12,415 bases of DNA, from positions 1 to 12,415 of the forward strand of contig JACVJG010000031.1 of assembly GCA_015711875.1 (NCBI GenBank). Direction: 5' to 3'. Each line of letters begins with the position of its first letter. Within the stretch, counting starts at the first letter, position 1. This DNA is from Candidatus Solincola jinzensis (GTDB taxonomy: Bacteria; Actinomycetota; Geothermincolia; Geothermincolales; RBG-13-55-18). The translations under genes were made by a program, and so were the position numbers. Under the pieces are notes generated by a model. That model saw only the letters and a list, made by a program, of their open reading frames with translations, did not search any database and was not told the origin of the DNA. Shown piece by piece: positions 331 through 12,156 of this stretch.

Positions 331-2997
331 TCAGCAGGCCCTGAACGCGCATATGTCCTGCTCGGTGCGGCGGATGATGTCGGCCTGGATCTCCGGGTTG
401 AGCTCGGTGAAGAAGGCGCTGTAGCCGGCCACGCGCACGATCAGGTTCTTGTGCCTTTCCGGGTGGAGCTGAGCATCGCGCAGGGTATCGGCGTCGATGC
501 AGTTGAACTGGATGTGCCAGTTGCCAAAGTCCGCCCACGTCCTGAGGTAATCCGCGAAGAGCTTCCTGTTCTCCTTTTTCAGCAGCGTGGGAAGGAACTT
601 CTGGTTGATGAGCTGATTCCCGCAACGCGTGGGATTGACCTTAGAGCATGACTTGAGCACGGCGGTGGGCCCGTTCACGTCCCTGCCGTGCATGGGCGAG
701 AGCTGTCCGTCGGATAGGGTCTCTCCCGCGTGCCGCCCGTCCGGGGTCGCCCCTGTCGAGAGACCGGTTGCGAAATAACCACCAGCCAGGGTGGCCTCGG
801 GCACGAATGGCTTTCCGAAGTGGTCCTTAACCCCTTTGAATACCTTGACCGCCTTGCGGTACAAGTCCTCGAGAAGCAGGTCCACGTAGTCATCATCGTT
901 GCCGAACTTGGGTACGGCAAGGCACTTCCGCCTCAGGTCTTCATGGCCGACCCAGTCCGACCTGCATGCCTTGATGAGCTCCTCCATGCTCACCGACCTC
1001 TCCTCGAAGACCAGCTTCTTGATCACCGCCAGGGAATCGGCGGCATTAACACACCCCGCCAGGAAGACCTCGCTGTAAGCCACGTCCCCTTTACGAGTGG
1101 CGTCAATGCCCCGCTTTATAGAGGTCTTCCTCCCCACCAGCATGGAGGCCAACGGCCTGGGCATCATCTCCTGAAACGCCTTCTCGCTTATCTCATACAC
1201 CTTGGCATTCTGCTCCAGCGCGTACCGCAGCTGCCACAGGAAAGCATCAAGGAAGTCCTCGTAGGTTCGGAAGGAACGCGGATCCGGAGTTCTCGCCCCG
1301 AGCTGTTCTCCAGTAGTCGGCTCCACCCCCTGGTAAAGGACATACTCCAGGCACTTGGCGTAATTGATGATCGCGGCGGCGATAATGGTGGTGAGAGTTC
1401 CTTGCACCGAGGCCATGCCCGTAAGCCCCGGGCCTACGCAGGCGGTGTTTGACCAATTCCGGGCGAGATAGAGAATCTCCTCCGCATCGAAGATACCCAG
1501 GCGCTTGGTGATGCCGCGCAGCATGTCCCCAATCCTGCCACCGGCGGCGCAAAGCTTGTAGGGCCAGTTATGGAAATAATCCTCGATAGCCTGCTCCCAG
1601 GATCTGGGAAGATACGAAATGGCTCTTTTCGCCGCGTCATGCGCCCATTTGAGAAGGGGCAGGCAGGCCACCCCGAAGAGTTTGCCGCACTCGGGATAGA
1701 GGTGCTCCATGGCGATGTAGAGGGTCCAGGGGATGACCGCCTTGTCGTTGAAAATAGCCGGCATGCCGATGCCGGTGGCGATGCACTCTATTGCCTTGTC
1801 CACGATTCTCGGGTCGATGTCGTCATGATACCTGAGGGTGAGGCTTGGCTGCAGAGTACGGATGTTCATGGTGGCATCGATCATAGCGAAGGAGAGCTCG
1901 TTAGTGGCGTCTTTACCGTAGCGATCGACTCCCCCCAGGGTGGCGCTCTGGAACTTGGTGCCACCCACTTGCAGCATGGAGGGGTTCATGGGGTTGATCT
2001 GACCCAGCTCGTCAAGCTTTATCCAAAGGTGCTCGAACAGCTCTACGGCACGCTCGTATGTGATGCGGCCCTCAGCTTTGTCTCGCTCGTAATACGGCCA
2101 GAAGAGCTGGTCGAATCGTTGACCCAGGCCAACGCTGTTCCAGTCTATTTGCGAGGTAATAAGGTGGTAGAACCAGAAAGCCTGCAGGGCCTCATGGAAG
2201 GTGCGGGGCGGGCTATCAGGGACGTGTGAGCATATCTCAGCGATCCTTTCGTACCGCTCCTTTTGCTCGCCCTCGGCCCCGGCGGCCTTCTCCCTGGCCA
2301 GAGCGGCGAATCGCCTGGCGAAGGCCTTAACCGCCTCGCCACAGGTCTCGGCCGCGTCGTAGAAGTCCCTCTTTTCCTTGTAGTCGCGGTCACCGGGTTG
2401 CAGCTTGTCGCGATGCTCGCGCACGTCGTCTAGAAGGCCGTCTAGCCCTACCTGGAAAGCAAGCTCGTAATTAAGAACCATGCACCCCAGCGGCCACTGC
2501 CAGAACCCGCCGACAGCACCCGTCCATTCCGTGAACGGCTTCAGCTCCTGCGGCACCGTCGCCAGCACTCTGCTCTCCACGCTGTTGGCCTCCCAATAGC
2601 GGTGTATCTCCTTGAGCCTGCGCTTCCCCTCCTCGTCCAGTGCGTGCTTGAAATGGGTCTCAAGACCCTTCTCCAACCAGCGGTAAGAAAACTCGGGATA
2701 GGTGGGGAGGCTATAGGGGGTGCTGCTGTAATTGCCCACTATCTCCTCCCCCTCAAGGATGTAGATGGTCATGTTGCGCAACAGAAAGTCGAGGGCTTTA
2801 GCTCGGCGCAGGATCCAGGGCTCGCCCTCGGTCTTCTTGTAGGATTCTGTGACAAGCTCGGCTCTCTCCAGGCATATTTTCACCCTGGGGTCCAAAGTGG
2901 GCTCGATCGGGACGTGTACGGTCGGGTTTTCCGCGACCCGGATGTGAATAACCCTGTGGATTCGGCTGGAATTCAAGGTCTCGGTGATCGTGCTCAA
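331..2997 (-). CDS. Glycyl radical enzyme GRE-1, unusual active-site loop, substrate unknown
   Basis: A complete glycyl radical enzyme of the pyruvate formate-lyase-like superfamily, 888 residues from the proposed TTG start. Cytoplasmic and oxygen-sensitive by family. The PFL domain fills most of the protein. The glycyl radical motif is RVAGYSAFF near the C-terminus, with the radical glycine at residue 858 (codon 424-426). The partner thiyl cysteine is at 520 (codon 1438-1440) in a loop reading TACVGPGLTG. Eliminases and the characterised 4-hydroxyphenylacetate decarboxylase have Cys-x-Glu here; this protein has Cys-x-Gly. About 70-75 extra residues (roughly 429-500) sit between the conserved FND strand (about 416) and the thiyl loop. 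The C-terminal stretch GPTAVLKSCSKV and the GNDDDY element recall benzylsuccinate-synthase and arylacetate-decarboxylase relatives (from memory). A TTG start is preferred because GAAGGGGGG lies 6 bases upstream; a GTG at 3021 would add 8 residues but has no ribosome site. It is divergent from the GntR gene. An enzyme is certain; its reaction is not. Confidence 0.93.
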   Translation of the reverse strand: MSTITETLNSSRIHRVIHIRVAENPTVHVPIEPTLDPRVKICLERAELVTESYKKTEGEPWILRRAKALDFLLRNMTIYILEGEEIVGNYSSTPYSLPTYPEFSYRWLEKGLETHFKHALDEEGKRRLKEIHRYWEANSVESRVLATVPQELKPFTEWTGAVGGFWQWPLGCMVLNYELAFQVGLDGLLDDVREHRDKLQPGDRDYKEKRDFYDAAETCGEAVKAFARRFAALAREKAAGAEGEQKERYERIAEICSHVPDSPPRTFHEALQAFWFYHLITSQIDWNSVGLGQRFDQLFWPYYERDKAEGRITYERAVELFEHLWIKLDELGQINPMNPSMLQVGGTKFQSATLGGVDRYGKDATNELSFAMIDATMNIRTLQPSLTLRYHDDIDPRIVDKAIECIATGIGMPAIFNDKAVIPWTLYIAMEHLYPECGKLFGVACLPLLKWAHDAAKRAISYLPRSWEQAIEDYFHNWPYKLCAAGGRIGDMLRGITKRLGIFDAEEILYLARNWSNTACVGPGLTGMASVQGTLTTIIAAAIINYAKCLEYVLYQGVEPTTGEQLGARTPDPRSFRTYEDFLDAFLWQLRYALEQNAKVYEISEKAFQEMMPRPLASMLVGRKTSIKRGIDATRKGDVAYSEVFLAGCVNAADSLAVIKKLVFEERSVSMEELIKACRSDWVGHEDLRRKCLAVPKFGNDDDYVDLLLEDLYRKAVKVFKGVKDHFGKPFVPEATLAGGYFATGLSTGATPDGRHAGETLSDGQLSPMHGRDVNGPTAVLKSCSKVNPTRCGNQLINQKFLPTLLKKENRKLFADYLRTWADFGNWHIQFNCIDADTLRDAQLHPERHKNLIVRVAGYSAFFTELNPEIQADIIRRTEQDICAFRAC

Positions 2998-3003
2998 CGC
3001 AAT

Positions 3004-3012
3004 CCCCCCTTC
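3004..3012 (-). promoter_or_regulatory. Ribosome binding site fixing a TTG start for GRE-1
   Basis: The minus strand reads GAAGGGGGG here, 6 bases before TTG at 2995-2997. It lies inside the reading frame that would begin at the upstream GTG (3019-3021), and the bases before that GTG (ATTCCGCAC) are not Shine-Dalgarno-like. The TTG is therefore the likelier initiation codon. Confidence 0.6.
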
Positions 3013-3180
3013 GTCATTCACGTGCGGAATGATACCGCAACTCCATATCGGGCGGTCCGGCGGAGCCAGCCAGGGTAAAATCTCTGGGTAGCTGTCTCCG
3101 TCTTCGTTATCTACCCCTTGCTATATCCCCTTGCGATATGCGTCCGCGTAAGAATCGCAAAAAGACGAATGTCGATTTTC

Positions 3181-3226
3181 GATTGACTACACGGTAGTAT
3201 ACCTTCAACCGTTCATTGAGTCAATC
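3181..3226. promoter_or_regulatory. Candidate operator: inverted repeats over the GRE-1 promoter
   Basis: Two overlapping symmetric elements cover the promoter. GATTGACT at 3181-3188 is perfectly inverted as AGTCAATC at 3219-3226, so one arm covers the -35 and the other the likely transcription start. Between them GGTA-GTA-TACC (3193-3203) covers the -10, overlapped by ACTAC-ACG-GTAGT (3186-3198). FadR-type GntR proteins bind short palindromes with a few central bases, so the adjacent regulator is the natural candidate. Short inverted repeats arise by chance in a region this size; position is what makes them notable. Confidence 0.4.
3196..3224 (-). promoter_or_regulatory. Sigma-70-type promoter for GRE-1
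   Basis: On the minus strand a -35 element TTGACT (3219-3224) and a -10 element TATACT (3196-3201) are separated by exactly 17 bases. Each differs from consensus at one position. Transcription would begin near 3189, giving a leader of about 190 bases before the TTG start. This is the best promoter in the window. Confidence 0.7.
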
Positions 3227-3463
3227 TTCTTCGGAAAATTGCGCCTGCAGCTCTCTGGAAATAATGGTAAGGCGGTTTTCCCCTATCTCTGTATGAACGG
3301 GTCTCTACCGTGAGGTTGCCCGCTCATCGCCGATCTCATTTTTTCCTTTTAGGTGTCCGCCTATTCTCATCACATGGTGGTTACAATAAAATCCATGATG
3401 GAATATCCACGAGGAGAATCGATGCCATGCACGGGCGAAGATCTCCTTCTAAAGCCCGCTCGC

Positions 3464-3470
3464 GGGAGGA
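3464..3470 (+). promoter_or_regulatory. Ribosome binding site for the GntR gene
   Basis: GGGAGGA lies 7 bases before ATG at 3478 and supports that start. An in-frame ATG at 3427, preceded by GAGGAG at 3411-3416, would add 17 mostly basic residues ahead of the winged helix. It remains possible but is less usual for the family. Confidence 0.6.
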
Positions 3471-3477
3471 TAGGATT

Positions 3478-4146
3478 ATGACCTTTGAAGCATCCCAGAA
3501 CCTATCAGAACAGATAGCCCAATATCTCGGCAACAAGATCATCCAGTTCGAGATGAAGCCGGGGGAGAGGATACTTGAGGCAAGGCTGGCGGAGGAGCTG
3601 GGGGTCAGCCGCTCCCCGCTAAGAGAAGCCCTGCGCATCCTTGAAAAACAAAGACTGGTGGAGTTGATACCCCGCAGGGGAGCGCGCGTCACCGAGCTGA
3701 CGCGGGAATACATTGAGAACCTGAGCGACGTCCTCAAGGAGATCCTGGGGCTGGTGGCATACAGGGGAGTGGAAAAGGGAACCCCCCATGATCTGGACAA
3801 CCTTTATTCCGCCTTGCGGGAAATGGAGAGCTGTGCCAGGAGAAAGGACATCCCCGCCTACCAGGACGCCACCTTTACTTTCGCGATCTATTCCTGCCGT
3901 GGCACCAAGAACCATTTGCTTGAGGAGCTAGTGCTCTTCCTTTGGCCCGACGTCAGACGAATACAGTTCGCGGCTTTGAGCTTCCAGAAAGACACCCTCC
4001 TCGACAATCTCAGATTCTATAGATCCGCTTGTGAATACTTCGCCGCCGGCGACGCGGAGGGAGCTTCCCAGGTCATCCGCGAGCTTGTGGAACATGAGAC
4101 GTCTTATTCCCTCAGGATATTGAGCGAGGGCTTCCCCACGCGGTAA
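3478..4146 (+). CDS. GntR-family (FadR/FCD-type) transcriptional regulator
   Basis: A 222-residue DNA-binding regulator. Residues 8-75 form a classic GntR winged helix: LSEQIAQYLGNKII, then KPGERI, the recognition segment ELGVSRSPLREALRIL, and the wing ELIPRRGARVTEL. The remainder (about 80-215) is all-helical, as in FCD effector domains. FCD domains usually bind a metal through one Asp and three His. Here Asp130 and His206 remain, but the D-x3-H histidine is Thr134 and the next is Tyr181, so the metal site seems lost or rebuilt. The gene is divergent from GRE-1, whose promoter carries inverted repeats, so it most likely controls GRE-1 and perhaps itself. Its 3' end converges on GRE-2 with a 160-base gap. 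Family assignment is firm; the effector is unknown, possibly the GRE-1 substrate or a related carboxylate. Confidence 0.9.
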   Translation: MTFEASQNLSEQIAQYLGNKIIQFEMKPGERILEARLAEELGVSRSPLREALRILEKQRLVELIPRRGARVTELTREYIENLSDVLKEILGLVAYRGVEKGTPHDLDNLYSALREMESCARRKDIPAYQDATFTFAIYSCRGTKNHLLEELVLFLWPDVRRIQFAALSFQKDTLLDNLRFYRSACEYFAAGDAEGASQVIRELVEHETSYSLRILSEGFPTR

Positions 4147-4306: not shown

Positions 4307-6916
4307 CTACAGGTCCGCGAACTCCGTGCGGGCGATGATGTCGTCCTGCAGCGACCTGGACAGGTCAACGAAACGAGCCGAATAGCCCGTGACCTTCACC
4401 GTGAGGTCGGGGTATCTCTCGGGATGCTCCTGCGCGTCGCGCAACGTGGCCGCATCCAGCGGGTTGAACTGCACGTGCCTGCCTCCCAGCACGAAGTAGG
4501 CCTCGAGCAGGGAGGCCAGCTTCTCCAGGTTCTCTTCAGACTGCAGCATGACCGGGGACAAGTTTACGTTAAGGGCGGAGCCGTCGCTCATGAAGGTACT
4601 GCCGGCAGCCGCGACGGAGTGAAACACCGCTGTTGCGCCGCTCGCCTCCATGCCGTTGACGGGAGAGATGCCGTTGGAGATCACCTCGCCCGCCCGCCTG
4701 CCGTCCGGGGTGGCCCCGCACAAGGCGCCCTCCAGGTCCTGGGTCCCCGATGAGAACATGCTGGGGCGGTAACGCCCTCCCCGCCAGCACGCGTGCTTCC
4801 TCGCCTCGCGCGTGAAGACCTCCGAGACCCATCGCGCAATGTCATCGACGCGGGGGTCGTCGTTGCCGAACTTCGGGGCTTTGCGCTGCAGCTCCTGGCG
4901 CAGGATCTCGTAGCCCACGAAGTCCCGCCGCAGGGCCTTGATCAACTCCCGCATGGAGACGATGCCTTCCTCGAAAACCGCCCAGCGAATGGCGGCCAGG
5001 GAATCGGCCACCGTGGCCAGCCCCTGGGCGTTGACGTGCCCGTGGTTGTAGCGGGCTCCCCCCCAGGTGAGGTCAAGCCCCGACTCCAGGCAGCCCTCGA
5101 CGGTGCACGAGAGCAGGGGAGTGGGGAACTCGGAGAAGACGCGGTCCTTGACCTCTGCCATGCGCACCAGCCTGGCGCCCGTATGCTCGACCTGGCGCTC
5201 GAACGCCTCCTGGACGTCCTCGAAGCGGCGGAAACGGCGCGGGTCGCGGGTGCGGGCCCCCACGCGGCGCCTTCCGGTGAGGAGGCGGCGCCCCCGGTTC
5301 AGGGCCATCTCCAGAACCGCCACCAGCCAGATCGCGTTGCCCGCGGTGTATGAGTTGTCGTTGCCGGTCGAGGCCGGCTCCACGCAGCCCACGATGGAGT
5401 AATCGCGCGCGTCCTCCAGGCTGTAGCCGTCCTCCAGCATATCCCGGATGATGATGTCGTCGTTGTAGAAGGCCACCCCCGCGGTCAAGCGGTGGGTCTC
5501 GCAGGCGCGCAGCAGGAACTCACGCGGCGTGGCATGGGAGACCCTCACCGCAAGGCCGTCGCCCAGGCCCCGAACGTTCTCCAGGGCCTCCAGGAAGATG
5601 TAGGACATCTCGTTGACTGCATCCCTGCCTTCACGGTCCACGCCACCGATGGTGATGTTGTTCGGCCCGAAGACAAGGTTGCATGCCGCCTTTACCAGAA
5701 ACTCCTCCACCGCCTCCACGGCCTGTTCCCTCGTAAGGCGGCCCGCATCGATGTCCGCCGCGTAATACGGGAACAGATACTGGTCCATCCTGCCTGCCGT
5801 GAAGACGTTGTCCAGGCCGTAACTGATGGACAGGGCCACCTGGGTCATCCACACCGACTGCAAGGCCTCCATGAAGGTGCGGGGCGTCCGCGCCGGCACC
5901 CGGCGGCAGCGCTCCGCGATCGCCATCAGCTCGGCCTTCCTCCCACCCTCTGCATTATCCGCCAGCCGTTCGGCCAGGTCTGCGTAACGCGAGGAGAAAT
6001 CGCAGACCGCCCGTGCCGCCACCTGTACCGAGCGCAGGAAGTCGAGCTGCCTATAAGACCCTTCTTCGTTATCTTCCAGCTCGCGCTCCCTGCCTTCCGC
6101 CCAAGCCGCGATACCCTCGAAGCCGAGCTCAAGGACCCTCGGGTAACCGGGCACGATGTGCCCCTGCATGTCCAGGAGAAGGAAGGTGAGGTCGGGCATC
6201 AACTCGTAGGCCAAGCGCATGGCTCTGGGGGCTATGGCCAGGGACCTCCAGCTCATCAAGCTGATGTTCCCGCCTATGTTCCTGGAGATCACCCGCAGCG
6301 CGTTCCTGAGACCGCCCAGGCCCCTGATCATGCGATAGAGGGAAACTGGGCCGATGAGAGGCTGGCCCGCGTAGAGGCCTTCCAGGGTAAGCTCCCTTAT
6401 TTTCCGGTCGTGGGCGGTCTTGTTGCGCCAGAAGGGTAGGATGTCTTTTTTCATCTCCCGGCGCATCTGCGGTGTAATGCTGCCTATGACCTCAGCCGAC
6501 CGCTCCTTGCTTATCCCCCCCACGGGCAGGGCCAGGTCCCGATCGGCGAAGCGGCTGAGGAAGAGCGCTATCGCCCCGTTGAAAGAACCTCTCTCGATCC
6601 CGATGGGCTCGGCCAGGGGGTTGGCGGCCTTCATCCCCACGAGCTGCTCGTCTTCGTCGATGCTCACCGGTATCTCGCGCAATGTCTCCCGCAGGGCCAG
6701 GGCCGCCCGCAGGCAGGGCTTCTTATTCCCGGACCTGCCCATACGCTTCCATACCCGCGTATAGCACCTCGCCCTCACCGCATCCAGTTCGTACGGGCTG
6801 GAAAGAACGCGCTCTTTCATCCTGCGCGTCCTCGGCGACGGGATCCCCCTGGGCTCCCGCATGGTCTCTGTTTTCCGCATAGCCTGCTCTCCCTCTTCCC
6901 TGGACTCTCTCGCCAT
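4307..6916 (-). CDS. Glycyl radical enzyme GRE-2, eliminase/dehydratase type, substrate unknown
   Basis: A second complete glycyl radical enzyme, 869 residues and only distantly similar to GRE-1. The thiyl cysteine is Cys511 in IVGCVEPAS (codon 5384-5386), followed by Glu513, the Cys-x-Glu pair of GRE eliminases such as glycerol, propanediol and hydroxyproline dehydratases, choline lyase and isethionate lyase. The radical glycine is Gly844 in KVTGYSARF (codon 4385-4387), with Thr where Ala is usual. QGHIVPGY (251-258) matches the Gly-His region that lines eliminase pockets. Fourteen residues after the cysteine, where glycerol dehydratase has the substrate-binding Asp of its WHD motif, this protein has an Ala in a GNDNSYTAG stretch, so glycerol or propanediol is unlikely. 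The start could also be ATG at 6878-6880 (12 residues shorter), which has the better ribosome site. It is divergent from the STAND-SARP regulator. Enzyme class is firm; the reaction, probably radical elimination, is inferred. Confidence 0.93.
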   Translation of the reverse strand: MARESREEGEQAMRKTETMREPRGIPSPRTRRMKERVLSSPYELDAVRARCYTRVWKRMGRSGNKKPCLRAALALRETLREIPVSIDEDEQLVGMKAANPLAEPIGIERGSFNGAIALFLSRFADRDLALPVGGISKERSAEVIGSITPQMRREMKKDILPFWRNKTAHDRKIRELTLEGLYAGQPLIGPVSLYRMIRGLGGLRNALRVISRNIGGNISLMSWRSLAIAPRAMRLAYELMPDLTFLLLDMQGHIVPGYPRVLELGFEGIAAWAEGRERELEDNEEGSYRQLDFLRSVQVAARAVCDFSSRYADLAERLADNAEGGRKAELMAIAERCRRVPARTPRTFMEALQSVWMTQVALSISYGLDNVFTAGRMDQYLFPYYAADIDAGRLTREQAVEAVEEFLVKAACNLVFGPNNITIGGVDREGRDAVNEMSYIFLEALENVRGLGDGLAVRVSHATPREFLLRACETHRLTAGVAFYNDDIIIRDMLEDGYSLEDARDYSIVGCVEPASTGNDNSYTAGNAIWLVAVLEMALNRGRRLLTGRRRVGARTRDPRRFRRFEDVQEAFERQVEHTGARLVRMAEVKDRVFSEFPTPLLSCTVEGCLESGLDLTWGGARYNHGHVNAQGLATVADSLAAIRWAVFEEGIVSMRELIKALRRDFVGYEILRQELQRKAPKFGNDDPRVDDIARWVSEVFTREARKHACWRGGRYRPSMFSSGTQDLEGALCGATPDGRRAGEVISNGISPVNGMEASGATAVFHSVAAAGSTFMSDGSALNVNLSPVMLQSEENLEKLASLLEAYFVLGGRHVQFNPLDAATLRDAQEHPERYPDLTVKVTGYSARFVDLSRSLQDDIIARTEFADL

Positions 6917-7231: not shown

Positions 7232-10200
7232 ATGGCCCGCAAAAAGGTTGATGGAAACCAGGCGCTCGAGGCGATCCACATCCTCTCCTCAAAGCTCACC
7301 CCGCCTCGCCTGCACGCCGTCGTGACCCGCGAGAGACTGCTCAAGGCGCTGGACCGCTCCTCTTCCGCCAGGTTGACCGCCATCGTCGCCGGCGCCGGCT
7401 TCGGCAAGAGCACGCTCGCGGCGGATTACCTTCGCCGGCGCAGCCAACCTTTTCTCTGGTACCAGCTGGAGGACACGGACCGCGACCTCAGTGTGTTCAT
7501 CGCCTATCTCGAGGAGGCAATGGCCAGGTCAGGAGCAGGCGGCGCGAGGATGTGCCGCAGCGCGAGGGAGTTGCTCGGCTCCCATGGGAAAGACCGGCGT
7601 CCCGCCCTCTCCCTGCTCCTGTCGCGCATGGAAGAATGCCTGCCGGAAGACGCATACATCGTCCTGGACGATTTCCAGGAGGTCAACGACAGCCCGGAGA
7701 TCACCGCTGCTCTTGACTACATCCTGGCTCACCTGCCTCACAACCTCCACATCCTCATCCTCAGCAGCCGCGAGATAGGCCTGGACCTCTCCCGCCTCAG
7801 AGCGCGCAGGGAAACACTGGAGCTGCGCGAGGAGGATATCTGCTTCACCGCCGAGGAGACCGCAAGGCTGTTCAATGAGGTCTTCGCGCTGAGGGTTAGT
7901 GCCGAGCAGGCGGCGGCCTTGACCGACCTGGCCGAAGGCTGGATAACCGGCTTGGTGCTCTTCTCTCACGCCATGCGGGAGGGCGAAGGCCCCCGGAGTA
8001 TCGACCTGGCGGACACGGCGGGCCTGTCCAATTCGCAGGTGTTCGACTATTTCTACCGGGTCATCTACCTGAGGATGGACGATCGCATGAGGTATTTTCT
8101 CCTCAGGACCTCCATCCTCTCGCGCATCGATGCGGGGTTCTGCGATGAATTCCTGGAGGCGGAGGACTCCCGCGACCTCCTCGACCACCTGGCCGCTTCC
8201 CATCTCTTCGTCGTTCGCCTCGACGAGGCGGGCAACTCCTACCGTTATCATCACCTTCTCAGATCCTTCCTGCGCAGCATACTGGAGAACACCCTGTCCC
8301 CACATGAGATAAAGCGGCTTCACGCCCGGGCCGCAGCGCTGTGGGGACGGCGCGGCGAGGCGGAGGAGGCGCTGCGGCACTGCATCGAAGCCGGCGATCA
8401 CGCCGCCACCGCCAGGCTCATGGAGGAAATGGCGGACAACCTGATGAAGGCCAACCGCATCACCTACGTGCTTGAAGCCATCTCCTCTCTGCCGGAGGCG
8501 ACCATACATGACCACCCACGGCTGGCCTTAACGCAGGCCTGGTGCCACGAACTTCTGGGCCAATACCGGCAGGCCATTGAGAAATACCGTGAGGCGGCGA
8601 CTGTCTTCTCCGATCTCGGGGAAGCGGCCTACAGCGTCGACTGCCTGAGAAACGCCATGAAGCTGTCCGTCCTGAGCGGCGCGGAGCCGGACGCCGGATG
8701 CGCGGTGACGGGATTCGCGCGATTGCTCGAGGGAGTACACCTGGAGCAAGATTCCTGGTACGAATCGGCCGCCATGCTCGGCGCGGGTTCTGCCTACCTG
8801 GGGCTGACGGAATGGGCGCGCTACTTCCTCGCGGTTTCCCTGGCGCATGTCGACGGGATCCGGGAAGAGCGCGCCCGCATAACCGTGCTCACCTGGAGCG
8901 GATACGTCGCTCTCTTGCTGGGAGAGTATAACAAAGCGGCACAACTGCTGGAGGGCGCCGAAAGGCTGTGCGAGAGCGCCGGTTTCTTCTCCCATCTGCC
9001 CGACATATGCAGCCTGAGATCCTTCACCCTCAGCGCACTGGGCAAGTATGCGGAGGCCAGGAAGGCCGCGGAGAAGGGTCTGCGGGTGAGCACAGATATC
9101 GGCGGAGGGGTGGCCTTGCCTCCCGGCCTATTACAGAATCGCCTGGCGAGGGCCATCTGCCTTGCAGATACGGGGGAGGAGGCCGGGGCTCTGCGGGAGC
9201 TGGAGCAGCTTTGTGAACTGGTTGAGGGGAGCGAGGACAGCTGGCTGGTCATCAATTGCAACCTTTTTGCCGGAACGGCGTATATGAAAGCGGGGGACAT
9301 AGAGAGATCGCTATGTTATTTCCGCAAAACCGAGGCGCTGTGCAGGGACAGCGGCTTCGTTGACGACCAGCTCCTCTCCCGCCTCTCGCGGTTAGCGCTA
9401 TCCGCGCGCGAGAGCGACCCGGATGAAGTGAAGCAAGAGGCCCTCTCCATCCTGGATGCTCTGAAGGGACGGGCAGCCGGAATCCTGCGATCCCCTTCTC
9501 TCCTCCTCCTCGCCTCCATCCTGCACCAGCTCGGCGAGGGGGAAGCCGCCCTTGAAACCCTCAACGCGGCGATACGTACCGACGAGGCAAGCGGCGGGCT
9601 CGGATGGTGGAACGCGTACTCGCGCCTGATATTGCCGGTAATGGAGAGTGCGTTCTCCCGGGGCGAACACCTCGATTTCCTGGCCCGGGCGTTCAGGGTC
9701 ATCGGCACCCCATCCCTTCCCTTCCTGCGCCGGTTGCGTAAGAGCGACAGGCGAGAGGTCAAGCGGAAAGCTCAGGAGTTGATCATGGAGCTGAGCCTCT
9801 TCAGAGCCTTGCCGCTGCGCATATATATGCTGGGAGATTTCCGGGTGATAAAAGGCGATATCCTGATAGAAGAGACCGTCTGGAGGAGCAGGAAGGCGCT
9901 CACGGTACTGAAATATCTGGCGGCATTTCACGGCAAGGGCCCCGTGCAGCGGGAAATGATCATGGAATTGCTGTGGCCCGGGATGGACCCCGATAGAGCG
10001 TCAAAGAACCTGAACGTCGCCCTGACCACCCTGCGCAAGGCCTTGGACCCGGACTCGGGCTGGGGCGATTGCCCCTACTTGAAAACGAGCGGCGACACCT
10101 TGCGGCTGAACCTCGGGGAGGGAGGCTACATAGACGTCGAGGCCTTTGAGGCGAAGTTGAAGGAAGCGGCGCGCGAAGTTGCAGCGGGAGACCGCGGCTC

Positions 10201-10606
10201 ACGCCTCAAGGCCTTGCTGGAAGCCGAGGGGATATACGGTGGAGACTTCCTCTCCGAGGATATATACGAGGACTGGTGCATCCCCCTGAGAAACGCTCTG
10301 CGAAGCTCTTATCTCAATCTATTACGGGAAATAGCGGACGCATACCTGGACGCGGGAGAGCACACGAAAGCTCTCACCTACGTTGAAAAGGCCCTGTGCG
10401 CAGACGCAGGAAGCGAAGATCTCTACCGGCGCCTGATGGTAATCAGGGCCGCCATGGGCGACAGGGCCGGCGTCGAGGAGGCGTTCGACCGCTGTCGTGC
10501 CCACCTCGAGGACAACCTTGGCGTTTCCCCCTCTTCCGAGACACATGAACTCCTCGAGAGGCTACGCAAACCCGGTGGGTCGATCCGGCCCGCGAAGAGA
10601 ACATAA
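7232..10606 (+). CDS. MalT-like STAND ATPase with C-terminal winged helix and BTAD (SARP-type) regulator
   Basis: A 1124-residue transcriptional regulator. The N-terminal part is a MalT-like STAND ATPase: an SKLTPPRLHAVVTRERL entry segment, Walker A GAGFGKST (54-61), Walker B YIVLDDF (142-148), SSR (178-180), GWITGL (236-241) and the YRYHHLLRSFLR element (338-349). Residues about 360-850 are helical repeats of TPR type, the usual ligand-sensing arm. MalT ends in a LuxR helix-turn-helix; here residues about 862-955 instead form an OmpR/SARP-like winged helix (LRIYMLGDFRV, LLWPGMDPDRASKNLNVALTTLRKAL split across its helices), and about 966-1112 a BTAD domain. AfsR-type SARPs have the reverse order. 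Such proteins are ATP-dependent switches that oligomerise on inducer binding. It is divergent from GRE-2, so it probably activates that gene. AAGGGG precedes the ATG by 5 bases. Confidence 0.9.
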   Translation: MARKKVDGNQALEAIHILSSKLTPPRLHAVVTRERLLKALDRSSSARLTAIVAGAGFGKSTLAADYLRRRSQPFLWYQLEDTDRDLSVFIAYLEEAMARSGAGGARMCRSARELLGSHGKDRRPALSLLLSRMEECLPEDAYIVLDDFQEVNDSPEITAALDYILAHLPHNLHILILSSREIGLDLSRLRARRETLELREEDICFTAEETARLFNEVFALRVSAEQAAALTDLAEGWITGLVLFSHAMREGEGPRSIDLADTAGLSNSQVFDYFYRVIYLRMDDRMRYFLLRTSILSRIDAGFCDEFLEAEDSRDLLDHLAASHLFVVRLDEAGNSYRYHHLLRSFLRSILENTLSPHEIKRLHARAAALWGRRGEAEEALRHCIEAGDHAATARLMEEMADNLMKANRITYVLEAISSLPEATIHDHPRLALTQAWCHELLGQYRQAIEKYREAATVFSDLGEAAYSVDCLRNAMKLSVLSGAEPDAGCAVTGFARLLEGVHLEQDSWYESAAMLGAGSAYLGLTEWARYFLAVSLAHVDGIREERARITVLTWSGYVALLLGEYNKAAQLLEGAERLCESAGFFSHLPDICSLRSFTLSALGKYAEARKAAEKGLRVSTDIGGGVALPPGLLQNRLARAICLADTGEEAGALRELEQLCELVEGSEDSWLVINCNLFAGTAYMKAGDIERSLCYFRKTEALCRDSGFVDDQLLSRLSRLALSARESDPDEVKQEALSILDALKGRAAGILRSPSLLLLASILHQLGEGEAALETLNAAIRTDEASGGLGWWNAYSRLILPVMESAFSRGEHLDFLARAFRVIGTPSLPFLRRLRKSDRREVKRKAQELIMELSLFRALPLRIYMLGDFRVIKGDILIEETVWRSRKALTVLKYLAAFHGKGPVQREMIMELLWPGMDPDRASKNLNVALTTLRKALDPDSGWGDCPYLKTSGDTLRLNLGEGGYIDVEAFEAKLKEAAREVAAGDRGSRLKALLEAEGIYGGDFLSEDIYEDWCIPLRNALRSSYLNLLREIADAYLDAGEHTKALTYVEKALCADAGSEDLYRRLMVIRAAMGDRAGVEEAFDRCRAHLEDNLGVSPSSETHELLERLRKPGGSIRPAKRT

Positions 10607-10938: not shown

Positions 10939-12156
10939 TCATGCTGGAGTGAAGGCCACTTTGATAGCCTTGTGTTCCCCCTTGCTCAGGGCCACGCGCA
11001 GAGCCTCCCGCCACTCATGCAGGCTGAAGCGGTGAGTCACCAGGCGGGAGAGGTCCACTTTTCCCTCCGCGAAGAGGCGCAGCGCCAGCTCGAAGTCGTG
11101 TACTCTTTCCCCCTGCCACTCCTCCTCCTGATAGCAGTAGATACCCCTGATGGTGAGTTCCTTAAGCCACACCGGCGTCCAGTCTATCTTCCCGGGCATC
11201 CCTATCCCCAGCAGGTTGTACCATCCTCCGTTGGCCAGCACGCGCAGGGAATCGTCGATGGTCCGGGTGGAGCCGACGGTGTCGAATACCCGGTCCACCC
11301 CGCCGATGAGGATAGGCCTGGCCATGAGGGGCGTGAACATCTTGGCCCCTGTGAGGTCGGCAACGCGCCGGTAGAATTCCTTGCCGCCCGGCTCGACCAC
11401 CTCATCCGCTCCCATCTCCCTGGCTATCATGGAGTGGAAGGGGTCGATCTCGACGGCGATGATGCGGCAGCCGGGGTGAAGCGCTTTCAGCGCGGCTATG
11501 GTGCCCAGTCCCATCATACCGCAACCTGTGACCATCACCGTCTCGTCCCCCTGAAGGCGGTTGAGGATGACCATATGCAGGCACGTGGCGAAGGGCTCGA
11601 CCAGCATGGCGTTCTCGTCGCTCACTTCCTCAGGGACTCGGTAGAGACCGGAGACATGAGCCACTCCGACCTCGCTGATGTACCCCGCGGCCGCCGCGCT
11701 GACCCCCACGTGAATGCCCGGCTCCAGACCCACGGTGAAGTTCTCGCATAGCTGCTGCCTGCCGGAAGCGCACATGGGGCAGGGCGGCTCTATGCCCCGG
11801 GCAGCGCATGCCAGGTGGGGCATGACCGTCACCCTGTCCCCCACCTCGAAACCCTCGACCGCCCCGCCCTTCTCGATTATCTCCCCGCAGACCTCGTGTC
11901 CCATGACGAAGGGAGAGGAGCCGACGAACTGCAGGGTGCGCGACTGGTGGCAGCGGATGATGCTGAGGTCGCTGCCGCACAAGCCCGACAGCCTGGGCCT
12001 GATCTTGACCCAATCTTCCCCCGGCAGGACCGGCTCCGGCACCTCCCTGACCTGCACCGGCGCCCATCTGGAGAAAAGCACCTCGGGGCGGCGCGAGGAC
12101 AGTGCCCCGACGGCGAGATATACAGGGATGTTGAGCTCGAAGGTCATGGCTTTCAT
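10939..12156 (-). CDS. Zinc-dependent alcohol dehydrogenase (MDR superfamily)
   Basis: A 405-residue medium-chain dehydrogenase that probably oxidises an alcohol or polyol, or reduces the matching aldehyde or ketone, with NAD(H). Catalytic zinc ligands are Cys60 in GLCGSDL, His87-Glu88 in MGHEV, and probably Glu187 in VEPFA. Four structural-zinc cysteines are Cys117, 126, 129 and 137; the first gap is 8 residues instead of the usual 2, with CAARGIEPPC, a spacing I recall from an uncharacterised branch of the family. The Rossmann loop is GCGMMG (211-216), and acidic Glu236 at the end of the second strand favours NAD over NADP. AGGAGG lies 5 bases before the ATG. The epimerase-like gene ends 143 bases upstream on the same strand, so co-transcription is possible. 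A link to the GREs, for example reducing an aldehyde product, is speculative; the specific substrate is unknown. Confidence 0.9.
   Translation of the reverse strand: MKAMTFELNIPVYLAVGALSSRRPEVLFSRWAPVQVREVPEPVLPGEDWVKIRPRLSGLCGSDLSIIRCHQSRTLQFVGSSPFVMGHEVCGEIIEKGGAVEGFEVGDRVTVMPHLACAARGIEPPCPMCASGRQQLCENFTVGLEPGIHVGVSAAAAGYISEVGVAHVSGLYRVPEEVSDENAMLVEPFATCLHMVILNRLQGDETVMVTGCGMMGLGTIAALKALHPGCRIIAVEIDPFHSMIAREMGADEVVEPGGKEFYRRVADLTGAKMFTPLMARPILIGGVDRVFDTVGSTRTIDDSLRVLANGGWYNLLGIGMPGKIDWTPVWLKELTIRGIYCYQEEEWQGERVHDFELALRLFAEGKVDLSRLVTHRFSLHEWREALRVALSKGEHKAIKVAFTPA

Follow-up and report, generated by a model that had tools for sequence, protein, structure and literature searches.

A glycyl radical enzyme of Candidatus Solincola jinzensis with a cysteine loop that lacks the eliminase glutamate and the fumarate-binding arginine

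The 12,415-nucleotide contig JACVJG010000031.1 of Candidatus Solincola jinzensis, analysed over its whole length and called the window here, encodes the large subunit of a glycyl radical enzyme (GRE-1) whose assignment to an undescribed subfamily is well supported by its sequence. Glycyl radical enzymes perform some of the hardest reactions of anaerobic metabolism, and their function is often read from the residues of the cysteine loop. As the loop of GRE-1 holds neither the acid of the eliminases nor the arginine of the fumarate-adding enzymes, its reaction is probably one that is not yet characterised. With a probability of about 0.5, GRE-1 activates a C-H bond in a substrate that is mostly nonpolar and perhaps derived from a hydrocarbon, does not carry out the elimination tied to a Cys-x-Glu (CxE) motif and probably does not bind fumarate as BssA does. 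It would be an oxygen-sensitive radical enzyme, and its group appears to be small, rare and made up of uncultured anaerobes. Since the family breaks both the rule that links CxE to elimination and the rule that links a loop arginine to fumarate, it is an obvious target in the search for a new radical reaction of anaerobes.

Catalytic residues and extent of the family

GRE-1 matches PF02901 (526 bits) and PF01228 (97 bits), both above cut-off. The relatives and the database copy of the protein (P0003, 888 residues) suggest a start at the TTG at 2995-2997 rather than at the upstream GTG. The Cys-loop sequence is ACVGPGLTGMASVQGTLTTI; nucleotides 1387-1461 encode residues 521 to about 545, with the codon of Cys528 at 1438-1440 and that of Gly532 at 1426-1428. 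Cys528 is the counterpart of BssA Cys493, MasD Cys477 and glycerol dehydratase Cys433, and the catalytic residues of BssA, MasD, HypD, glycerol dehydratase, IslA and HplG align with Cys528 and Gly866. The loop stretch ACVGPGLTGMASVQGTL and the radical motif RVAGYS are both present in the frame of the gene, so that the Cys-Val-Gly-Pro-Gly loop and intact glycyl radical motif described by the first-pass annotation of this DNA are confirmed as Cys528-Gly532 and Gly866. The same annotation correctly read no Glu two residues after the Cys, where GRE-1 has Gly530 and none of the 26 family members has Glu, and a Leu at the spacing of the fumarate-binding Arg of BssA, which is Leu543; there is no Arg between Cys528 and the AKCLE helix. 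In the predicted structure, the Cys loop has a predicted local distance difference test (pLDDT) score of 84-87.

A protein search with GRE-1 gave 1163 matches, the best 120 of which were considered. Among these, 24 further relatives (P0004-P0027) share 50-82% identity with GRE-1 and a fragment (P0040) shares 55%, while below the family identity falls sharply to 36-48%, mostly in partial alignments. The family as used here consists of 26 rows including GRE-1, with P0003 excluded as the window's own protein. Two loci found in the DNA of metagenome-assembled genomes (MAGs) were not added as rows: a copy at a contig end with the loop CVGGG (L028), and a frame-split gene (L003) that is counted as P0027. 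The pattern C-V-[GAT]-x-G is kept in 26/26 members and Cys528 is invariant across a 58-sequence alignment, which argues that the loop did not arise by chance; Gly866 is kept in all 24 members that reach its position. The expectation of a separate cluster with a conserved CVGPG therefore held for the cluster, a separate clade of 26, while the exact CVGPG occurs in only 9/26 (P0001, P0004-P0010 and P0023), 8 of which form the subclade around GRE-1.

The family appears to be rare. A scan of a genome collection recovered three relatives, in one MAG each of Smithella, of Nitrospirae and of an unclassified bacterium. Overlapping phylum draws of 297, 297 and 395 genomes gave matches solely in genomes already known from that scan, and neither 155 genomes of the class of the Smithella genome nor groups of 2, 3 and 2 genomes yielded a family genome beyond those known. 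Four genomes of another class, scanned without a positive control, held no match. A literature search for the subfamily gave, among the matches listed, no paper describing it.

Some genomes seem to carry more than one copy. The members of the pairs P0004/P0006 and P0007/P0020 come from contigs of equal size (138754 and 10287 bases, respectively), which suggests two copies per contig, and the 8.9 Mb genome that is the source of L003 (G003) has 26 matches to the PFL-like family, some of them pieces of one gene, with two loci belonging to the GRE-1 family. In L003 (9947-12677) the coding sequence of the relative is broken into two overlapping parts that are read in different frames, by a frameshift or an assembly error.

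Placement among glycyl radical enzymes

In two trees, both rooted on IslA, the GRE-1 family forms one clade (FastTree support 1.0 with 26 sequences; ultrafast bootstrap, UFBoot, 90 with 13 representatives) that contains no reference enzyme, BssA and MasD falling outside it. All Glu-free sequences form one superclade (support 0.998 and UFBoot 100). One side of it holds the X-succinate synthases, the other a sample of 99 uncharacterised neighbours (P0028-P0122 without P0040, and L008, L011, L017, L021 and L023), among which the GRE-1 family is nested. The sampled superclade is thus far wider than the X-succinate synthases alone.

Glu at Cys+2 was found in 0/26 family members, 0/99 neighbours and 12/18 other sequences, the remaining 6 of which are X-succinate synthases with Ser. 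The whole superclade, BssA and MasD included, lacks this Glu, so that its absence alone is no sign of a new reaction class. The proposal of an uncharacterised reaction class, as originally made, is consequently upheld by the undescribed clade and weakened in its main argument, since the missing Glu is a superclade trait (Glu in 0/125 members other than X-succinate synthases). The missing Arg, an insertion before the Cys loop and Glu651 are stronger marks of the family. Within Cys+10 to +17, 87/99 neighbours carry an Arg, compared with 4/26 family members, in which it replaces Gln540. Only 2/99 neighbours have Arg in the exact column of MasD Arg492; as the first count measures distance from the Cys and the second the exact column, the Arg of the neighbours is not claimed to be a fumarate Arg. 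The Arg-bearing neighbours could possibly be further carboxylate-binding or fumarate-adding enzymes. Loss of the loop Arg, the insertion, Glu651 and a divergently transcribed GntR/FCD gene set the GRE-1 family apart.

All 12 NCBIfam models matched by GRE-1, covering HypD, HpsG/HpfG, CutC, indoleacetate decarboxylase (IAD), 4-hydroxyphenylacetate decarboxylase (HPAD), PflD, PFL and others, were matched below cut-off, the best equivalog at 440.5 of 1000 bits; as a control, L007 passes HpsG with 1182 of 1000 bits. No characterised relative with the same loop at well above half identity emerged: structural alignments (37 rows) with solved glycyl radical enzymes other than PFL show 26-35% identity.

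Residues around the active site

The CXE motif is given as the rule for eliminases in the excerpted text of one study (PMC8473560). In GRE-1, the dehydratase residues His164, Ser282, Glu435 and Asp447 of glycerol dehydratase align with C180, V297, G530 and A548, and GRE-1 is likely to work without CxE-assisted elimination. In (1-methylalkyl)succinate synthase and benzylsuccinate synthase, as far as the available portion of another study goes, one carboxylate of fumarate sits in the oxyanion hole of the Cys loop and the other on an Arg (PMC12358834). The corresponding column (BssA Arg508, MasD Arg492) holds no residue in 26/26 family members, and BssA Asn615, Ile617, Gln707 and Val709 align with F653, A655, T744 and A746. 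Across the family, BssA Gln707 is mostly Thr, Asn615 mostly Phe and Glu189 mostly Gly, the last also being Gly in MasD. Fumarate is therefore likely not bound as in benzylsuccinate synthase. The earlier suggestion that GRE-1 may not use fumarate stands as regards the empty Arg column and is tempered by position 540, which is polar in 26/26 members (Q20, R4, H1, N1) and could hold a carboxylate.

Other positions are either shared with the fumarate adders or specific to the family. W523, C413, A379 and Q301 are common to GRE-1 and BssA, the first three also to MasD. Among the residues conserved in the family alone are Gln351 (25/26, at BssA Phe385), Lys356 (26/26), Gly532 and Gly541 (26/26 each), Trp835 (24/24) and Cys841 (24/24, with the misaligned broken tail of P0027 left out), in addition to Glu651.

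The insertion before the Cys loop

Between Asn425 and Cys528, 23/26 members have 103-114 residues, whereas P0018, P0025 and P0026 have 40, the P-numbered neighbours 25-27, six reference chains 26-34 and GRE-2, a second glycyl radical enzyme in the window, 26. The predicted structure places five helices in the insertion (block pLDDT 86-96), which could be a lid, a partner surface, a lipid-docking patch or a binding patch of the coenzyme A type.

Docking to a membrane was considered as part of the preferred explanation and moved to a more speculative one. Comparing the best window of the insertion with all other single windows favours any long stretch, and segments of the same length are the fairer control. 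Against all such segments, the insertion holds the strongest amphipathic-cationic 18-mer in 12/23 long-insertion members and a net charge within the top 5% in 10/23, and that of GRE-1 is unremarkable. A literature query on membrane-bound glycyl radical enzymes, loosely matched so that it tests little, returned unrelated membrane papers only.

A probable genomic link to alkane activation in Smithella

The Smithella relative provides a genomic link between the family and alkane activation. Its gene ends at 7391 of the locus (L001) and is followed on the same strand by a gene for a 54-residue gamma subunit of the MasC/BssC/TutF type (7526-7690; PF08201 60.5 bits, cut-off 25; MasC E 3.5e-13, TutF 2.2e-5). 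Small Fe-S accessory subunits are a feature of X-succinate synthases. Elsewhere in the same genome, which has four loci with MasD-like loops, there are copies with 98-100% identity to this gamma gene. One copy directly precedes a masD-like gene (L022), and the last 178 bases of the Smithella locus are identical to the edges of two contigs with masD-like genes (L018 and L020), the product of L018 scoring 1220 bits against MasD. For these reasons, the Smithella family gene very probably stands before an alkylsuccinate synthase operon, although the join crosses a repeated stretch and is not proven.

Regulator and neighbouring genes

The divergent GntR/FCD gene was found in the window, L001 and L003, that is in 3/4 distinct loci with upstream sequence, and was not found in the 17.8 kb of the fourth (L002); L028, the second copy of G003, ends at a contig edge. 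Four of the closest relatives of the GntR protein lie on contigs of 5874, 5026, 6456 and 131662 bases, the same sizes as family contigs, the last being that of L003. The GntR/FCD protein would control the GRE-1 gene, probably in answer to a metabolite of the pathway. FadR/FCD-like operator patterns that were tried gave none in the window's intergenic region. In L001 (4661) and L003 (9865 and 9954), palindrome-like ATTGTCGAC sites lie between the enzyme gene and the divergent GntR gene and could possibly be GntR operators there; ATTGTCGAC was not found in the window.

Table 1. Features of GRE-1 and its control region in the window.
Feature	Position	Strand	Basis or remark
GRE-1, glycyl radical enzyme large subunit	331..3021	minus	896 aa from GTG or 888 aa from TTG
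Cys loop C528-V-G-P-G532	1426..1440	minus	alignment
Gly866 in RVAGYS, counterpart of radical-bearing glycine (BssA Gly829)	424..426	minus	alignment
Q540-G-T-L543; Leu543 = Cys+15, fumarate-Arg spacing of BssA/MasD	1393..1404	minus	alignment
Glu651, strand S7, family-specific	1069..1071	minus	E 22/25, Q 2, N 1
Helical insertion, residues about 436-512, directly before Cys loop, family-specific	1486..1716	minus	spacing, model
GntR/FCD regulator, 222 aa, divergent from GRE-1	3478..4146	plus	domain search
Presumed control region separating the divergent genes of GRE-1 and GntR	2998..3477		

Downstream of the enzyme gene the loci differ. L002 has a glycyl-radical activase directly downstream, which matches the generic TIGR02494 (331 bits, cut-off 174) and reaches the cut-off of no specific activase model, that of BssD being missed with 240 of 496 bits. 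With this activase as the single query, a tblastn search of the window, L001 and L003 gave no activase. In L003 the gene directly downstream (12740-13618, plus strand) encodes a two-cluster Fe-S protein of 292 residues, which contains 4Fe-4S motifs and whose N-terminus looks hydrophobic. A short-chain dehydrogenase is encoded downstream in L028.

GRE-2 (4307-6916, minus strand) has a CVEP loop of the eliminase type and falls below the cut-off of all 12 NCBIfam models (HypD 480 of 1100 bits). Its few named relatives belong to Actinobacteria, Geothermincolia, Acidimicrobiales and Promethearchaeota, a distribution that hints at a host in Actinomycetota and at a possible transfer of GRE-1. GRE-2 was considered as a conserved partner and rejected: among the 120 relatives listed for it, no contig size recurs in the 26 family rows except the window's 12415, in a limited comparison in which each cluster is represented by its longest contig. 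The window also encodes a large regulator that resembles MalT and has a BTAD domain (7232-10606, plus strand) and a zinc alcohol dehydrogenase (10939-12156, minus strand), with no link to GRE-1 shown for either.

Proposed reaction and alternatives

From what is known of the superfamily and from the alignment of both residues, a radical-S-adenosylmethionine activase would form the radical on Gly866, which would generate the thiyl on Cys528. The thiyl would then abstract hydrogen from a C-H bond of the substrate, which would be largely nonpolar and perhaps derived from a hydrocarbon; both the polar set of the eliminases and the fumarate Arg of the Bss and Mas enzymes are missing from the pocket. 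More tentatively, the substrate radical would break or make a C-C bond, decarboxylate or isomerise, without a 1,2-elimination of the CxE type; the oxyanion hole of the backbone may stay open because the residues of the Cys loop are small, with Glu651 as a possible acid or base. Perhaps the helices inserted beside the Cys loop form a lid or offer a surface for docking.

Several observations weigh against this explanation. Gln540 and Lys356 could bind a carboxylate, and with Gln351 and Glu651 both polar the pocket is not purely hydrophobic. The insertion of GRE-1 has a net charge of 0, 25/63 same-length segments match its amphipathic score, and 3/26 members lack the long insertion. No activase was found within the 330 bases downstream of GRE-1, where the window ends. 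A search for Cys-rich open reading frames of 40-150 residues within 2.5 kb found no gamma-subunit-like gene near the family genes of L002, L003 and L028 or in the window, where 330 bases follow GRE-1, and the gamma neighbour in Smithella may simply be the next operon.

Alternatively, and with fairly low likelihood, GRE-1 could add fumarate or a related co-substrate as the X-succinate synthases do, the Arg anchor being replaced by Gln540, Lys356 or another residue. These enzymes share its superclade, BssA has the same Pro-Gly after the Cys and the four shared residues named above, position 540 is always polar, and the gamma gene and four MasD-like loci of Smithella raised the odds of this alternative. 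The empty Arg column, the replacement of BssA Gln707, Asn615 and Glu189, and the position of the family outside the BssA/MasD clade all speak against it. Moreover, the gamma gene more likely serves the masD-like genes, because it is nearly identical to the copies that precede them, and none was found beside the other relatives examined. Limonenylsuccinate synthase was considered as a family member and set aside, being 61% identical to BssA with the fumarate residues conserved, according to the accessible part of its description (PMC12583861).

Its place before an assC-type gene in Smithella suggests that the family may feed or work beside the alkylsuccinate pathway. A new reaction class in such a setting, in which a hydrocarbon or a compound derived from one is activated by a radical without fumarate and the cationic amphipathic insertion of at least some members docks on a membrane or other lipid surface, is doubtful as a whole. 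The insertion outscores all same-length segments in 12/23 long-insertion members and does not do so in GRE-1. The benzene-activating cluster of methanogenic cultures was also considered and rejected, as the extract of its report proposes a flavin/Fe-S complex rather than a glycyl radical enzyme (PMC13101534).

GRE-1 is rather unlikely to decarboxylate an aryl- or alkyl-acetate non-oxidatively by a route that begins with hydrogen-atom transfer, a mechanism proposed for phenylacetate decarboxylase. The frequent sensing of organic acids by FCD regulators counts for this alternative. So does hydrogen transfer itself, one of two routes proposed for phenylacetate decarboxylase in the text available from PMC9248008, and so does the presence of Glu651 on strand S7, which carries HPAD Glu637 and IAD Leu616 in the section seen of PMC6181972; by an approximate estimate based on spacing, Glu651 lies two residues before the HPAD/IAD column (F653). 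Against this alternative, GRE-1 has no counterpart of the Glu that HPAD and IAD carry at Cys+2 and misses both cut-offs (IAD 403.5 of 1100 bits, HPAD 301.1 of 1150 bits). An eliminase whose acid/base Glu has shifted from the Cys loop to Glu651 is decidedly improbable. A decayed or inactive enzyme is very hard to reconcile with a single open frame and a Cys and Gly intact in GRE-1 and throughout the family, even though the L003 relative is split between two reading frames, a break that may be an assembly error.

Comparison with known systems

The X-succinate synthases (BssA/TutD and MasD) share with GRE-1 the glycyl radical fold, a Glu-free Cys loop and the superclade, and BssA also the Pro-Gly after the Cys; they differ in Arg508/Arg492 and other fumarate contacts, in forming a separate clade and in a short spacing before the Cys (TutD 34 and MasD 27, compared with 103 in GRE-1). 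The eliminases (glycerol and propanediol dehydratase, CutC, HypD, IslA and HpsG) carry CXE, unlike GRE-1, which has lost the polar residues of the dehydratases and misses the NCBIfam cut-offs where models exist. The arylacetate decarboxylases HPAD and IAD have a Cys+2 Glu that GRE-1 lacks, a comparison that covers these two rather than the arylacetate decarboxylase (AAD) loop or PhdB. The 99 sampled uncharacterised neighbours, many of which read C-[MV]-x-x-x-IPGK, also lack the Cys+2 Glu and belong to the same superclade; they differ in the frequent Arg at Cys+10 to +17 and in a spacing of 25-27 residues before the Cys.
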